Assembly (NCBI GenBank): GCA_027483465.1
Contig: JAIXUQ010000034.1
Location: 123,790 to 187,789, forward strand
Direction: 5' to 3'
Source: Sphingomonadales bacterium
Lineage (GTDB): Bacteria; Pseudomonadota; Alphaproteobacteria; Sphingomonadales; Sphingomonadaceae
DNA length: 64,000 nt
Shown here: piece after piece, positions 26,077-31,715 of the stretch
Layout: every line of letters begins with the position of its first letter
Position numbering within the stretch: position 1 is the stretch's first letter
Notes under the pieces: model-generated
What the model was told of the DNA's origin: nothing
What the model saw: the letters and a program-made list of their open reading frames with translations, nothing else
Databases searched by the model: none
Translations under genes and position numbers: made by a program

Positions 26077-27057
26077 TTACGGATGTCGGACGGCGCGATG
26101 CTCGCCGCTCACCCGCCGCACCGTTCCGGTTGATGCCCGCATCACCACGCTTTCGGTGGTGATGATGCCATCCTTTCGGCGCTTCACACCCTTCAACAGC
26201 GATCCATCTGTCACCCCGGTGGCGGCGAAGATGCAATCGCCTTTCGCCATGTCGGTGAGACTATAGATGCGATCGAGATCGGTGATCCCCCAACGGCGAG
26301 CCCGCGCCCGCTCGTCGTCGTTGCGGAACAGCAGGCGGCCCTGCATCTGGCCACCCACGCAGCGCAGCGCGGCGGCGGCCAGCACACCTTCGGGGGCGCC
26401 GCCTGAACCCATATAAAGATCAATGCCGGTATCGGGATTGGTGGTGGCGATCACACCTGCCACGTCGCCATCAGGGATCAGCATGATCCCACATCCCAGC
26501 GCGCGCAGTTCGGCGATCAGCGCTTCATGGCGCGGGCGATCAAGCACGCAGACGATGATGTCAGCCGGGGCCACGCCCTTGGCTGATGCCACGGCCTCCA
26601 CATTCTGCGTGGGCGACTTATCGAGGCTGATGATGCCATCAGGATAGCCAGGGCCCACAGCCAGCTTGTCCATATACACATCGGGCGCATTGAGCAGGCC
26701 GCCTTCTTCCGCGATGGCAAGCACGGCCAGCGCATTTGGGCCGGCCTTTGCTGTGATGGTTGTACCTTCCAACGGATCAAGAGCAATATCGATCCGGGGG
26801 CCGGTGCCGATGGCCTTGCCCACCTTCTCGCCGATGAACAGCATCGGCGCCTCATCACGCTCGCCTTCGCCGATCACCACCGTGCCATCGAAATCCAGCT
26901 GGTTGAGCGCGTTGCGCATCGCCTCTACAGCCGCGGCATCGGCCGCCTTTTCATTGCCGCGGCCAATCAGCTTGGATGCGCCGATGGCCGCATATTCGGT
27001 AACGCGCACCATTTCGAGCACGAGCACCCGATCAAGCACATGGCTGGCAACCGTCAT
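26077..27057 (-). CDS. glpX: Fructose-1,6-bisphosphatase class II
   Basis: Hydrolyses fructose 1,6-bisphosphate in gluconeogenesis. The 326-residue protein shows the GlpX signature GTVVIGEGERDEAPMLFIGEKVG, the metal-binding DPLEGTT, and GSGGAPEGVLAAAALRC. The start at 27057 (MTVASHVLDRVLVLEMVRVTE) agrees with GlpX proteins; an in-frame start 30 bases upstream would add an atypical extension. It lies 73 bp after hom in the same minus-strand series; this co-location with hom and recJ recurs in sphingomonads as far as I recall. Confidence 0.95.
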   Translation of the reverse strand: MTVASHVLDRVLVLEMVRVTEYAAIGASKLIGRGNEKAADAAAVEAMRNALNQLDFDGTVVIGEGERDEAPMLFIGEKVGKAIGTGPRIDIALDPLEGTTITAKAGPNALAVLAIAEEGGLLNAPDVYMDKLAVGPGYPDGIISLDKSPTQNVEAVASAKGVAPADIIVCVLDRPRHEALIAELRALGCGIMLIPDGDVAGVIATTNPDTGIDLYMGSGGAPEGVLAAAALRCVGGQMQGRLLFRNDDERARARRWGITDLDRIYSLTDMAKGDCIFAATGVTDGSLLKGVKRRKDGIITTESVVMRASTGTVRRVSGEHRAVRHP

Positions 27058-27129
27058 CGCAACAAAACCCCCAAAATCCGAATCCACCGTGCGACAGCCT
27101 TACGCCCGCCGACGCGGTGACGAAAGGCG

Positions 27130-28422
27130 TCAAAAGTCCAGAATATGCATCATCACCGGCTGGCCGCTCACCGAATCTGATGCGGCCATGCGGGCAAGGC
27201 TGGCCAGCACATCAGCTTCGCGGGCTTCATGGGTCACCATCACCACCATGGCATCACCGCTGGCCGACATGCCACGCTGCACCAGGCTTTCAATCGAAAC
27301 GCCACAATCGCGCAAGGCCGCCGTGAGTTCGGCCAGCACGCCAGCGCGATCAGCCACGTTTAGTCGCAGATAATAGCGGCCGCGCCGATCGGCGGCATCG
27401 GCGCGGGGCAGGGCGGCCAGATCAGCCACCGGCATCACGAACGGCGGCCGCACGTCGCCGCGTGCGATATCCACCAGATCAGCCACCACGGCACTGGCCG
27501 TGGGGCCCTCGCCCGCGCCCCGGCCCTGGAAGAACAGCCGGCCGACAAAGTCGCCTTCCACCACCACGGCATTCAGGCTGCCGATGGTGGTGGCCAGCGG
27601 ATGCGCCATCGGTACCAACGCCGGGTGAACCCGTTGAAACAGCCTGCCATCTTCGGCTTCGGCCAGGCCCACCAGCTTGATGCGGAAACCCAAAGCCGCC
27701 GCCTGGGCGATATCAGCGCTTTCGATTGCCCGGATGCCGGCACAGGCCACGCCGGCAAAATCAACCCGGGCACCAAAGGCCAGCGCAGCCAGGATCGAAA
27801 GCTTGTGTGCCGTGTCGATCCCATCGATGTCGAAACTTGGATCAGCTTCAGCAAAACCAAGCGCCTGTGCATCGGCCAGAACTTCAGCAAAGCCCAGACC
27901 TTCGGCCTCCATTCGCGACAAGATATAATTGCAGGTGCCGTTCATCAGACCATAGACGCGGCTAACCCGGTTCGCCGCTGCGCCTTCGGAAAGCCCCTTG
28001 ATCACTGGAATGCCACCGGCCACGGCAGCCTCATATTTCAGCGGCAAGCCCGTTTTCTCGGCCGCAGCCGCCAGTTCAAGGCCATGATGGGCCAGCATTG
28101 CCTTGTTGGCGGTCACCAGCGGCTTGCCGGCGGCCAGCGTGCGCCGGGCCAGCGTGAGTGCGGGGCCATCGCTGCCACCGATCAATTCCACCACGACATC
28201 CACATCGGTGCGTTTGGCCAGTTCGGCTGCATCATCCACCCAGGCGATGCCCTCCAGGCTGATGCCGCGTTCGCGGTTGCGGTCGCGGGCGCTCACCGCC
28301 GTCACCACGATCGGCCGCCCGGCGCGACGCCCAACCAGATCGGCATTGCTGGCGAGGATCTTCACCACCCCGGCGCCGACATTGCCCAGCCCGGCGATCC
28401 CGATGCGCAGTGCCCCTGCCAT
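27130..28422 (-). CDS. hom: Homoserine dehydrogenase
   Basis: Reduces aspartate semialdehyde to homoserine for Thr, Ile and Met synthesis. The 430-residue monofunctional enzyme has the nucleotide-binding IGIAGLGNVGAGVVK, TANKAMLAHHG, the signature YEAAVAGGIPVIKGL with the catalytic lysine, and a C-terminal ACT domain (LNVADRAGVLAELTAALRDCGV), which suggests feedback control by threonine. It starts only 3 bp after the aminotransferase stop, so the two form one operon under the candidate leader upstream. Confidence 0.96.
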   Translation of the reverse strand: MAGALRIGIAGLGNVGAGVVKILASNADLVGRRAGRPIVVTAVSARDRNRERGISLEGIAWVDDAAELAKRTDVDVVVELIGGSDGPALTLARRTLAAGKPLVTANKAMLAHHGLELAAAAEKTGLPLKYEAAVAGGIPVIKGLSEGAAANRVSRVYGLMNGTCNYILSRMEAEGLGFAEVLADAQALGFAEADPSFDIDGIDTAHKLSILAALAFGARVDFAGVACAGIRAIESADIAQAAALGFRIKLVGLAEAEDGRLFQRVHPALVPMAHPLATTIGSLNAVVVEGDFVGRLFFQGRGAGEGPTASAVVADLVDIARGDVRPPFVMPVADLAALPRADAADRRGRYYLRLNVADRAGVLAELTAALRDCGVSIESLVQRGMSASGDAMVVMVTHEAREADVLASLARMAASDSVSGQPVMMHILDF

Positions 28423-28425
28423 GTT

Positions 28426-29637
28426 TCAACCCCCTGCCTTGGCGGAGGGCGTGTTCACCCCCATGGACTGCAGATACTTGCGGATGTTGCGCGCGGCCTG
28501 GCGCAGGCGTTGCTCATTTTCCACCAGCGCAATGCGCACAAAGCCTTCGCCATCTTCACCATAGCCAACCCCCGGCGCCACGGCGACGCCGGCATGGGTA
28601 AGCAACTGCTTGGAAAACTCGAGGCTGCCCAGATGGCGCAGCGCCGGCGGCAGGGGCGCCCAGGCAAACATGCTCGCCCGTGGCGGCGGGATATCCCATC
28701 CAGCTCGCCCGAAGCTTTCCACCAGCACATCGCGGCGGCGGTGATAAAGCGCACGGTTCTCCGCAACGATATCCTGCGGACCGTTCAGCGCAGCCACGGC
28801 GGCCGCCTGAATCGGCGTGAAGGCACCGTAATCGAGATAGGATTTCACCCGGGTGAGGGCTGAAATCAGCGTCTTGTTGCCCACGGCAAAACCAATGCGC
28901 CAGCCGGCCATCGAATAGCTCTTGGACAGCGAGGTAAACTCGATCGCCACATCCTTGGCACCCGGCACCTGCAGGATTGACGGGGTGGGTTGTCCGTCGA
29001 AATAGATCTCCGAATAGGCCAGATCCGAGAGCACCCAGATATTGTGCTTGCGTGCAAACGCCACCACGCGTTCGTAAAAGGCCAGATCAGCCACCTCGGC
29101 GGTCGGGTTGCTTGGATAGCCCATCACGAGCACGGATGGGCGTGGCACGGTAAAGCGCACCGCCCGCTCCAGCGCTTCGAAATAGCGTTCATCCGGCGTA
29201 GTCGGCACGCTGCGGATGGTGGCACCCGCTATGATGAAACCGAAGGTGTGAATGGGGTAGGACGGGTTGGGTGCCAGCACCACATCGCCGGGCGCGGTGA
29301 TGGCCTGGGCCAGATTGGCGAGGCCTTCCTTGCTACCCAGGGTCACCACCACCTCGCTGTCGGGGTCCAGATCCACCCCGAAACGCCGGTCGTAATAGGC
29401 CGCCTGGGCCCGGCGCAGCCCTGGAATGCCCTTTGACGCGCTATAGCCATGGGCATCGGGCTTGGCCGCCACTTCGGCCAGCTTCGCGATCACGTGCGGC
29501 GGCGGCGGCAGATCGGGATTGCCCATGCCCAGATCGATGATGTCCTCACCCGCGGCGCGTGCCTTGGCCCGCATGGCGTTCACTTCCGCGATCACATAGG
29601 GCGGCAAGCGTTTGATGCGGTAGAATTCGTCCTGCAT
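28426..29637 (-). CDS. PLP aminotransferase, AlaC-like (often annotated LL-DAP aminotransferase)
   Basis: A class I/II aminotransferase of 403 residues: DLGMGNPDLPPP at the N-terminus, GYPSNPTAEV, and the PLP lysine in SLSKSYSMAGWRIGFAVGN near residue 237. The sequence type matches the glutamate-pyruvate transaminase AlaC group, which is frequently labelled LL-diaminopimelate aminotransferase in genomes; alanine synthesis is the more likely role, but substrate cannot be proved from sequence. It is coupled to hom (3-bp gap) and is preceded by an Ala-rich leader ORF and a strong terminator, an arrangement that suggests attenuation by charged tRNA. Confidence 0.85.
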   Translation of the reverse strand: MQDEFYRIKRLPPYVIAEVNAMRAKARAAGEDIIDLGMGNPDLPPPPHVIAKLAEVAAKPDAHGYSASKGIPGLRRAQAAYYDRRFGVDLDPDSEVVVTLGSKEGLANLAQAITAPGDVVLAPNPSYPIHTFGFIIAGATIRSVPTTPDERYFEALERAVRFTVPRPSVLVMGYPSNPTAEVADLAFYERVVAFARKHNIWVLSDLAYSEIYFDGQPTPSILQVPGAKDVAIEFTSLSKSYSMAGWRIGFAVGNKTLISALTRVKSYLDYGAFTPIQAAAVAALNGPQDIVAENRALYHRRRDVLVESFGRAGWDIPPPRASMFAWAPLPPALRHLGSLEFSKQLLTHAGVAVAPGVGYGEDGEGFVRIALVENEQRLRQAARNIRKYLQSMGVNTPSAKAGG

Positions 29638-29684
29638 GGTTGGTTCCGTTGGATTGCTGAAGCTGCCTTAGGCAGGGATGGCAC

Positions 29685-29725
29685 AAAAGAAAAGCGGCGG
29701 AGAAACCTGTTTGTTTCGCCGCCGC
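29685..29725 (-). terminator. Strong intrinsic terminator upstream of the aminotransferase-hom operon
   Basis: On the minus strand GCGGCGG, a single mismatch, and GAAAC pair with GTTTC and CCGCCGC around a six-base loop, giving 12 base pairs, and the run TTTTCTTTT follows. It ends the short leader transcript but sits only about 47 bp before the aminotransferase ATG, so it can control read-through into that operon. Confidence 0.85.
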
Positions 29726-29756
29726 CGATGAGAGGGTCAGATTGTTGTTCTTGCCC

Positions 29757-29852
29757 TCAGGTCGGTGGCGGCACGCTGGCGGCAGCGGCCATCGCGGTGG
29801 CAGCGGCGGCTGCACCGGCGATGATGGCTGCAATGTCCGCCTGATGGCGCAC
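29757..29852 (-). CDS. Candidate Ala-rich leader peptide (31 aa)
   Basis: A GTG-started 31-codon ORF (VRHQADIAAIIAG...) with GGGAGAGA seven bases before the start. Fourteen of 31 residues are Ala, in runs of five (codons 14-18) and four (codons 22-25); three Ile and two Thr are also present. It ends 32 bp before a strong terminator that precedes an AlaC-like aminotransferase and hom. This is the classical layout of a ribosome-mediated attenuator. Caveats: the frame is open far upstream antisense to phaC, and GC-rich DNA readily yields Ala codons, so coding is inferred from the ribosome binding site, stop and position. Confidence 0.55.
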   Translation of the reverse strand: MRHQADIAAIIAGAAAAATAMAAAASVPPPT

Positions 29853-29960
29853 GTTTCTCTCCCAGCCGGCGAACCGCCGGTGGACCGGTCTTACCCCAAA
29901 GGCCGGGCTTGGCAAAGCCCCGCCTTCAAGGGCACAACGACAGCACAGGAGCACCCCGTC

Positions 29961-31715
29961 ATGTCCGATCCCGTGTCCGATCCCGCCGAGCAGGCCCAGC
30001 AGGCGTTCCAGCAGCTCACCGACATGATGGGCAAGGGCCAGCAGATGATGCTGGAATTCTGGACCAAGGAACATGCCGCGCCGCCGCTGGTGCCCGATCC
30101 GCTGGGTGTCATGTCCACCTGGGCGAAGGCGTGGACCGCCATGCTGGCTGATCCGGCCAGGCTGATGGAGCAGCAGCAGCGCTATCTCACTGATGCGCTT
30201 GGTCTGTGGCAACGTTTCCTCACCCCGAATGCCGAGTCTGCGCCAGTGAGGGACAAGCGCTTTGCGGCCAAGGCCTGGGCCGAAAACCCGGCCTTTGATT
30301 TCCTGCGCCAATCCTATCTGCTCACCGCCAGCCACCTGATGCAGGCCGCCGGGCAGCTGGATGGCCTGGATACCGCCGAACAGGCCAAGGCGCAGTTCCT
30401 CATCAAGCAGTTCGTTGATGCCATGAGCCCATCCAACTTCATGGCGACCAATCCCGAAGTTCTGGCCAAGACAGCCGAAACCGGCGGCGCCAACCTGATC
30501 AAGGGCCTCGAACATCTGCTCGCTGATCTGTCGGCCGGCCGCATGCGGATGACGGATGAAAACGCCTTCGAAGTGGGCCGCAACGTGGCCATCACGCCGG
30601 GCAATGTGGTTTATCAGAACCGGCTGTTCCAATTGATCCACTATGCGCCCAGCACCGAAACCGTGTTCACCACCCCGCTGCTGATCTTTCCGCCGTGGAT
30701 CAACAAATTCTACATCCTCGATCTCACCGCCGAAAAAAGCTTCATCCGCTGGGCCGTTGCGCAGGGTCTCACCGTCTTCGTTGTCAGCTGGAAAAACGCG
30801 GACGAGACGCTGGCCGATGCCACGATCGACACCTATGTTGAAGAGGGCATGTTCACTGCCATCGATCTGGTGCGGACCATCTGCGAGACGCCCTCGGTCC
30901 ACACCATCGGCTATTGTGTCGCCGGCACCACCCTGGCCGCCGCGCTGGCGGTGCTCGCGGCCCGCGGTGAGGCCGACAAGGTCGCCAGCGCCACCTTTTT
31001 CACTGCCCAGGTCGATTTCAGCGACGCCGGCGAACTGAAACTGTTCGTTGACGATGCCAGCATCGACACGATTGACAAGTTGACCGACGGCAAGCCGGTG
31101 CTCGACGGCCGCTACATGGCGACCAGCTTCAACCTGTTGCGTTCTAACGATCTGATCTGGAACTATGTCGTCAACAACTATATGCTGGGCAAGGATTATT
31201 TCCCCTTCGACCTGCTCTATTGGAACAGTGACGCCACCAATGTCCCCGCCCGCTGGCACCGCGAATATATTGACCAGATGTATCGCCGAAACCGGCTGAT
31301 CGTGCCCGGCGGCATGACCGTGGCCGGCACCCCGGTCGATCTCTCTACGGTCAAAACCCCAAGCTACATCCAGGGCGGCAAGGAAGACCATATCGCCCCG
31401 GCCCGCAGCGCCTTCAAGCTCACCCGCGCCTTCAGCGGCGAAACCCGGTTCGTGCTGGCCGGCAGCGGCCATATCGCCGGCGTCGTGAACCCGCCCTCTG
31501 CAGGCAAATATCAATATTGGACCAACGATGCCAAGGCCGACAGCCTTGATGACTTCATCGCCGGTGCCAGCGAAACCAAGGGCAGTTGGTGGCCCGACTG
31601 GCTGGCCTGGCTTGCGCCGCGGTCCGGCCCCCAGGTGCCGGCCCGGCAGCCCGGCGCCGGCCCCTATCCGGCGCTGGAAGATGCCCCCGGCGCCTATGTC
31701 AAGCAGCGCATCTGA
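29961..31715 (+). CDS. phaC: Class I poly(3-hydroxyalkanoate) synthase
   Basis: Polymerises hydroxyacyl-CoA into PHA on the granule surface. The 584-residue protein has the N-terminal helical domain of class I enzymes and a catalytic domain with the lipase-like box GYCVAGTT (catalytic Cys near residue 319), VSWKNADET, and the catalytic His region in GSGHIAGVVNPPS near 503. The start MSDPVSDPAEQAQQAFQQL has AGGAG nine bases upstream. It is divergent from the Ala-rich leader. A weak 6-bp hairpin followed by T4 lies right at its stop (31715-31733). No phaA, phaB or phasin gene is in the window. Confidence 0.95.
   Translation: MSDPVSDPAEQAQQAFQQLTDMMGKGQQMMLEFWTKEHAAPPLVPDPLGVMSTWAKAWTAMLADPARLMEQQQRYLTDALGLWQRFLTPNAESAPVRDKRFAAKAWAENPAFDFLRQSYLLTASHLMQAAGQLDGLDTAEQAKAQFLIKQFVDAMSPSNFMATNPEVLAKTAETGGANLIKGLEHLLADLSAGRMRMTDENAFEVGRNVAITPGNVVYQNRLFQLIHYAPSTETVFTTPLLIFPPWINKFYILDLTAEKSFIRWAVAQGLTVFVVSWKNADETLADATIDTYVEEGMFTAIDLVRTICETPSVHTIGYCVAGTTLAAALAVLAARGEADKVASATFFTAQVDFSDAGELKLFVDDASIDTIDKLTDGKPVLDGRYMATSFNLLRSNDLIWNYVVNNYMLGKDYFPFDLLYWNSDATNVPARWHREYIDQMYRRNRLIVPGGMTVAGTPVDLSTVKTPSYIQGGKEDHIAPARSAFKLTRAFSGETRFVLAGSGHIAGVVNPPSAGKYQYWTNDAKADSLDDFIAGASETKGSWWPDWLAWLAPRSGPQVPARQPGAGPYPALEDAPGAYVKQRI

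Follow-up and report, generated by a model that had tools for sequence, protein, structure and literature searches.

Does a short, Ala-rich open reading frame followed by a terminator, placed ahead of an alaC-like aminotransferase gene, work as a ribosome-mediated transcription attenuator, and which amino acid would it sense? The question is raised by the reverse strand of a 64,000-nucleotide stretch of Sphingomonadales DNA, referred to here as the window. Classical attenuators generally combine a short ORF rich in codons for an amino acid, a terminator before the first structural gene, and an antiterminator; the trp, his, thr, leu, ilv, and phe leaders of proteobacteria share with the present locus an ORF rich in the regulated amino acid, a terminator, and a predicted antiterminator that excludes it. 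Our analysis suggests that the Ala-rich ORF together with its hairpin and T-tract is probably an attenuator of this type, sensing the charging of tRNA-Ala. The mechanism is known, and its specificity for alanine is apparently undescribed.

The leader ORF (Table 1) opens with GTG at 29852, closes with TGA at 29759-29757 on the minus strand, and would encode the peptide VRHQADIAAIIAGAAAAATAMAAAASVPPPT, whose Ala residues include runs of five and four. A GGAG motif lies 6 nt 5' of its start, and 30 nt separate its end from a hairpin (29726-29694) that is followed by TTTTCTTTT, has a predicted dG of -22.2, and stands 47 bp 5' of the alaC ATG at 29637. Parsing the sequence bore out what the sequence-only reading had claimed for the locus, namely a 31-codon ORF with 14 Ala codons in runs of five and four, a ribosome site, and a stop, as well as a strong terminator about 47 bp before the aminotransferase ATG. 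A simple terminator scan of the window failed to report the leader hairpin.

Table 1. Features of the alaC leader region and its neighbours, in window coordinates
Feature	Position	Strand	Basis or remark
phaC, class I PHA synthase, divergent	29961-31715	+	ATG 29961 picked by eye inside a longer ORF, 29742-31715
Promoter-like pair TTGCCA (29915-29910) and TAAGAC (29893-29888), 16-nt spacer	29888-29915	-	putative; read by eye
Shine-Dalgarno of leader ORF (GGGAG)	29859-29863	-	upstream alignment of 12 leaders
Leader ORF, 31 codons + TGA, 14 Ala	29757-29852	-	read and parsed; 12 of the 24 genus genomes have the conserved form
Predicted antiterminator 5' strand TGCCGCCACCGA, over Pro codons at ORF end	29762-29773	-	nascent-RNA folds
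Small hairpin H2, starting inside the stop codon, looped within the antiterminator	29732-29758	-	RNAalifold and per-sequence folds
Shared segment, terminator 5' arm or antiterminator 3' strand	29717-29728	-	folds
Intrinsic terminator hairpin (predicted)	29694-29726	-	terminator scan; one A-U/G-C two-sided change
Terminator T-tract TTTTCTTTT	29685-29693	-	invariant in 11 of 11 aligned, present too in G018
alaC-like aminotransferase gene	28426-29637	-	NF006604, named LL-diaminopimelate aminotransferase; next model alanine transaminase
hom, homoserine dehydrogenase	27130-28422	-	3 nt after alaC
glpX, class II fructose-bisphosphatase	26077-27087	-	after hom

The genus of the window is that of Sandarakinorhabdus, the S. 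rubra and S. limnophila loci matching the upstream sequences of G007 and G004. A search of 24 genomes of this genus with the aminotransferase at E 1e-150 returned matches in 23, the exception being G018, which is 75% complete; the upstream regions of these 23 loci were inspected together with those of 80 further contig loci (nine of which repeat genus loci) and 19 loci from other genera. The same arrangement is found in eleven genomes (L001, L004-L013), which an alaC tree of 33 rows places in one clade with 100/100 support. The upstream sequence of L011 is shared by S. limnophila DSM 17366 (L028), which has the element. When a covariance model built from these eleven leaders was run against the 24 genomes, 12 gave one strong match each. 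The twelfth is G018 (locus L151), matched blind and not used in building the model, whose leader has 16 Ala codons of 33 with an alaC start behind it. Across the conserved form, each leader contains a short ORF of 25-33 codons with 12-17 Ala codons, and an intrinsic terminator can be recognized by sequence between the leader and the first structural gene in 12 of 12. Shine-Dalgarno-like GGAG, AAGG, AAGGA, or TAAGG lies 6-11 nt before the start in 11 of the 12; L005 has GGA only. Two weak matches of the model, in G000 and G004, were read as ordinary terminators after longer ORFs and set aside. In L005 and G018, CGA stands in place of the TGA, and the ORF is longer by three codons, ending at a TAA inside H2.

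Beyond the clade, L024 and L025 carry dissimilar Ala-rich ORFs (22 Ala of 37 and 15 of 30 codons, respectively) before strong terminators, again ahead of alaC. A further candidate, L020 (11 Ala of 37), is a weak case whose terminator failed the scans, and it was excluded from the support; L015 has neither a leader nor a longer gene before alaC. Eight sister genomes (L014, L016-L019, L021-L023) have a longer, secreted-protein-like gene in the place of the leader, and in seven of the eight a terminator is detected 31-61 nt before the alaC ATG. This sister gene has a CSAKVxDxC-like motif and in several cases an Ala- or Thr-rich tail, and read-through may be needed for alaC in the sister genomes as well. 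The scan of 90 further loci (71 contig loci that do not repeat genus loci and 19 from other genera, several shortened by contig ends) yielded no such leader; in L067, an ORF of 30% Ala precedes a weak hairpin. The sequence-only reading had held that homologous loci keeping the terminator while lacking the Ala ORF would speak against an attenuator. Within the clade the two always occur together (12 of 12), which favors the reading; outside it, seven of the eight sisters have the terminator and no Ala leader, which does not.

In an attenuator the control codons are kept as an amino acid while the sequence drifts, and this is the pattern we observe in the clade, in a small sample and with a protein-guided alignment. 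The eleven leaders have 12-17 Ala codons in frame and 1-6 in the shifted frames. Codon positions were compared with the start and the last five codons excluded, along with the L011-L013 pair. Among five chosen non-overlapping pairs of leaders (of 54), there are 20, 20, and 49 differences at codon positions 1, 2, and 3, so that 49 of 89 differences fall in the third position, and at Ala codons 28 differences are synonymous as against 12 that exchange Ala for another residue. The 54 overlapping pairs give 248, 244, and 640 differences at the three positions and 390 synonymous against 155 Ala/other changes. As the alignment is guided by the peptides, it favors a third-position and synonymous result; in ungapped, frame-blind pairs, the third-position excess appears in three (L001-L004, L011-L012, L012-L013) and there is little in two (L001-L009, L004-L009). 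Within the ORF, the frame-blind alignment has gaps of 3, 6, or 15 nt; L006 is misaligned in it.

How often would such an arrangement be met by chance? A control scan of 115 sources, 727,789 bases in all, detected 123 terminators, of which 57 had a preceding short ORF (20-40 codons, ATG or GTG, ending 12-45 nt before the terminator) and 13 had one of at least 38% Ala. All 13 precede alaC, and they are the eleven leaders of the clade plus L024 and L025. Loci L026-L032, L037, and L040, whose upstream sequences are those of genus loci, and L001 and L125, which lie inside the window, were left out of this control. Because its sources are mostly alaC neighbourhoods, we also scanned 400 kb of one G004 contig, with 25 kb around alaC excluded, and obtained 56 terminators, 25 with an ORF and none with an ORF of at least 30% Ala. 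No other amino-acid leader passed the filter in these 400 kb, so the scan provides no same-genome positive control for the pipeline. Pooled over the eleven leaders, the 165 Ala codons are GCC 73, GCA 43, GCT 28, and GCG 21; the 182 Ala codons of alaC, hom, and glpX in the window are GCC 91, GCG 50, GCT 21, and GCA 20. The share of GCA, 43 of 165 in the leaders as compared with 20 of 182 in the operon genes, perhaps reflects a bias to one tRNA-Ala isoacceptor.

Folding of the leader RNA predicts two mutually exclusive structures. An RNAalifold consensus of eleven leaders has two-sided compensatory changes at 5 of the 20 pairs of H2 and the terminator, four of them among the seven pairs of H2 and one in the terminator; the three innermost variable pairs of H2 are broken in some rows, partly from poor alignment of L005 and L006, and the H2 fold is weak in L005. 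The 261-nt window leader is more stable than its shuffles (z -4.4), and its minimum-energy fold contains the terminator together with a pairing of the 5' UTR to the ORF tail. We then placed a stalled ribosome codon by codon, on the assumption that its footprint reaches 13 nt beyond the A-site codon's first base. With stalls on nearly all Ala codons but the last two or three, the terminator 5' arm is predicted to be paired upstream at ∼0.8-1.0 in 11 of 11 leaders; with the ribosome at the stop codon, this pairing drops to 0.20-0.52 in 11 of 11, and G018 behaves alike (0.35). The partner of the arm at most stalls in the nascent-RNA folds is the ORF tail CGCC(G/A)CC, with H2 inside the loop. Complementarity between the Ala codons and the left arm of the terminator, which the sequence-only reading had pointed out, does exist, and mid-ORF Ala codons match or exceed the tail in their pairing with the arm; for most stalls, however, the folds choose the Pro-codon tail. 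The main antiterminator strand is thus predicted to be the CGCC(G/A)CC tail of the ORF, with the small covarying hairpin looped inside.

The exclusion of terminator by antiterminator is seen in the nascent-RNA folds, while the equilibrium picture is mixed and the gain over codon shuffles is modest. For the full RNA with the ribosome at the stop, the terminator is predicted at 0.87 and the antiterminator at 0.00 (12 of 12). Once the 3' arm is present and the ribosome is stalled, the terminator often wins at equilibrium, and the antiterminator takes values from 0.00 to 1.00 over the positions tried. Ribosome-free nascent RNA gives the antiterminator at 0.82-1.0 in 12 of 12, and ribosome-free full RNA favors the terminator in 9 of 12. 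Since the stalled-state equilibrium is mixed, the switch would have to be kinetic, by co-transcriptional capture; known attenuators likewise switch kinetically. Codon-shuffled ORFs switch almost as well as the native ones, although the native ORF exceeds the shuffled mean in 12 of 12; the shuffles that reach the native switch number 17, 23, and 25 of 60 in L001, L009, and G018, respectively. The duplex between the tail and the terminator arm beats its shuffle mean in 11 of 11 leaders, with equally good shuffles numbering 1-13 of 500 in five leaders and 39-70 of 500 in six (L004, L005, L009, L011-L013). Tail/terminator complementarity, considered as proof of the antiterminator, is weakened by these duplex shuffles, by the mid-ORF pairing, and by the codon shuffles.

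In the mechanism that we propose, transcription would start at the promoter-like block, and a ribosome would trail RNA polymerase through the leader. When Ala-tRNA is plentiful, the ribosome would reach the stop codon and cover the CGCC(G/A)CC tail and the 5' arm of H2; the GGCGGCGGCG arm would then be free, the terminator would form, and transcription would end at 29685-29693. When Ala-tRNA is short, the ribosome would wait on an Ala codon, and the ORF tail would pair with GGCGGCGGCG, with H2 inside the loop, before the other arm of the terminator is synthesized, so that polymerase could continue into alaC, hom, and probably glpX. The attenuator dependent on ribosome position that the sequence-only reading had placed before the AlaC-like gene finds support, with its antiterminator strand moved to the Pro-codon tail.

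As to the signal, that reading had left a choice between tRNA-Ala and, given hom downstream, Ile or Thr. Alanine is favored, as the eleven leaders contain 12-17 Ala codons and only 1-5 Ile and 1-3 Thr codons. The gene order points the same way. The 3-nt alaC-hom gap is found in 7 of the 11 clade loci; in L007 and L009 several hundred bases separate hom from alaC, and in L024 and L025 a search of ∼1.5 kb downstream of alaC did not reveal hom. Each of these four loci still has its Ala-rich leader in front of alaC, which indicates that the leader tracks alaC and not hom, and Ile or Thr as the signal was accordingly given a lower standing. A riboswitch or T-box was rejected, there being no Rfam match in the leader and only two tRNAs in the window at the gathering score. 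The enzyme may fit the role of AlaC better than that of DapL. Its best NCBIfam model, NF006604, is the one named LL-diaminopimelate aminotransferase, and the alanine transaminase model, next in rank, scores the protein 583.7, under its cut-off of 647; the genome contains dapD, above cut-off, so that the succinylase route to diaminopimelate is likely present and the aminotransferase need not be the DapL of the lysine pathway. By sequence, its nearest neighbour among solved structures is 2x5d, described as a probable aminotransferase. An alanine dehydrogenase is also encoded, and alanine may therefore have another source.

An attenuator could also respond to any slow-down of the leader ribosome, be it through general charging, Ile start codons, polyproline and EF-P, or antibiotics, with Ala frequent merely since GCC-type codons suit the pairing. 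GCC-rich codons are indeed complementary to GGCGGCGG, codon shuffles retain most of the switch, Ile at position 7 is nearly invariant with II frequent near the leader start, and PP or PPP occurs near the stop in 12 of 12 leaders. We nevertheless regard this alternative as unlikely, as the leaders do not simply favor GCC (see the codon counts above), the Ile and Thr codons are few, and Ala is abundant also in the dissimilar ORFs of L024 and L025. Returning to a leader read by tRNA-Ala charging, we can suggest, tentatively, a more specific form of it, in which alanine is the sole signal, so that it would be the first leader of that kind, the Pro codons have two uses, providing the antiterminator strand and holding the ribosome so that it covers this strand under alanine sufficiency, and dissimilar Ala-rich leaders have become placed ahead of alaC on more than one occasion in this genus (the clade, L024, and L025).

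Compared with classical attenuators, the leader described here differs in its putative alanine control, its 12-17 control codons, the covarying hairpin inside the predicted antiterminator, and the lack of a clear protector hairpin; a protector hairpin of the trp type gives termination without translation. The E. coli ilvB attenuator exerts multivalent valine/leucine control over an acetohydroxy acid synthase. According to a 1984 report on ilvB in E. coli, attenuation reportedly involves amino acids that reflect substrates or products, and alanine may be one of several signals; such an attenuator is unlike a leader devoted to alanine alone and placed ahead of an alanine-type aminotransferase gene. 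In the T-box leaders of alanine genes in Firmicutes, too, tRNA charging controls a terminator, but T-boxes recognize tRNA by direct binding, with no part for a leader peptide; the present region has a putative leader peptide and no Rfam match at the gathering score. Among the matches listed in the open-access literature there was no dedicated alanine attenuator, and to our knowledge little is known of how alanine is sensed in bacteria without T-boxes. If the proposal is correct, alanine would be added to the few amino acids that leader peptides read, the leader would hint at what the alaC-hom-glpX group does and furnish a native reporter of alanine charging, and the 12 genomes supply natural variants, with differing codons on the same RNA plan, for asking which Ala codons or which tRNA-Ala isoacceptor are read. 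Candidates for classical attenuators have been described in Actinobacteria, and the word "alanine" is absent from the main text of that paper (PMC1262725). A leader-peptide attenuator of an alphaproteobacterium is peTrpL/rnTrpL, the trp leader of Sinorhizobium meliloti, which is translated as judged by ribosome profiling and belongs to a tryptophan operon with a 14-residue leader and a leaderless message, in contrast to the 31 codons and Shine-Dalgarno-like site found here (PMC10117765; PMC7298713).

Finally, alaC transcription likely needs read-through of the terminator, on the strength of the sequence arrangement. As phaC diverges from alaC, the alaC promoter is expected in the interval between them. 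An alignment of 12 upstream regions shows, 5' of the leader in the clade, a GCTTTGCCAAGCC-type block, diverged in L008, and after it a TTAT- or CTA-like element. Promoter-like hexamers are found ∼40-60 nt before the leader ORF, and a sigma-70 consensus scan of the window scored no promoter at the leader, the TTGCCA/TAAGAC pair included. The distance from the hairpin to the alaC ATG is 55-57 nt in nine leaders and 36 nt in L011-L013, where it includes a TAAGGA 7 nt before the ATG; a separate ordinary promoter would not be expected to fit into these 36 nt along with the ribosome site. This spacing argues against an ordinary gene for a small Ala-rich, perhaps membrane, protein that has a promoter and terminator to itself, with alaC transcribed from a separate start. 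The peptide does look like a brief hydrophobic stretch, often beginning with basic residues, and the sister genomes do have a small secreted-protein-like gene in this place, mostly with a detected terminator behind it; yet most peptide positions vary except Ala, Pro, and Ile 7, and pairing between the tail and the terminator arm exceeds the shuffle mean in all eleven leaders, and we consider such a gene improbable. Least probable of all, and very much so, is a relic comprising the terminator of a lost gene and a truncated signal-peptide remnant, with alaC living on constant partial read-through and nothing being sensed, which the gene and terminator of the sisters and the Ala-rich look (by eye) of the predicted N-termini of that gene could suggest, as a relic would be expected to decay, whereas frame, Ala codons, H2 pairs, and terminator have been kept through divergence. 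Between the terminator and the alaC ribosome site we also observe an inverted repeat, CTGCC-TAA-GGCAG (29663-29675, minus strand), whose outer pair varies between C-G and T-A among relatives and whose right arm is gone in L011-L013; it may be an extra hairpin or a protein site.
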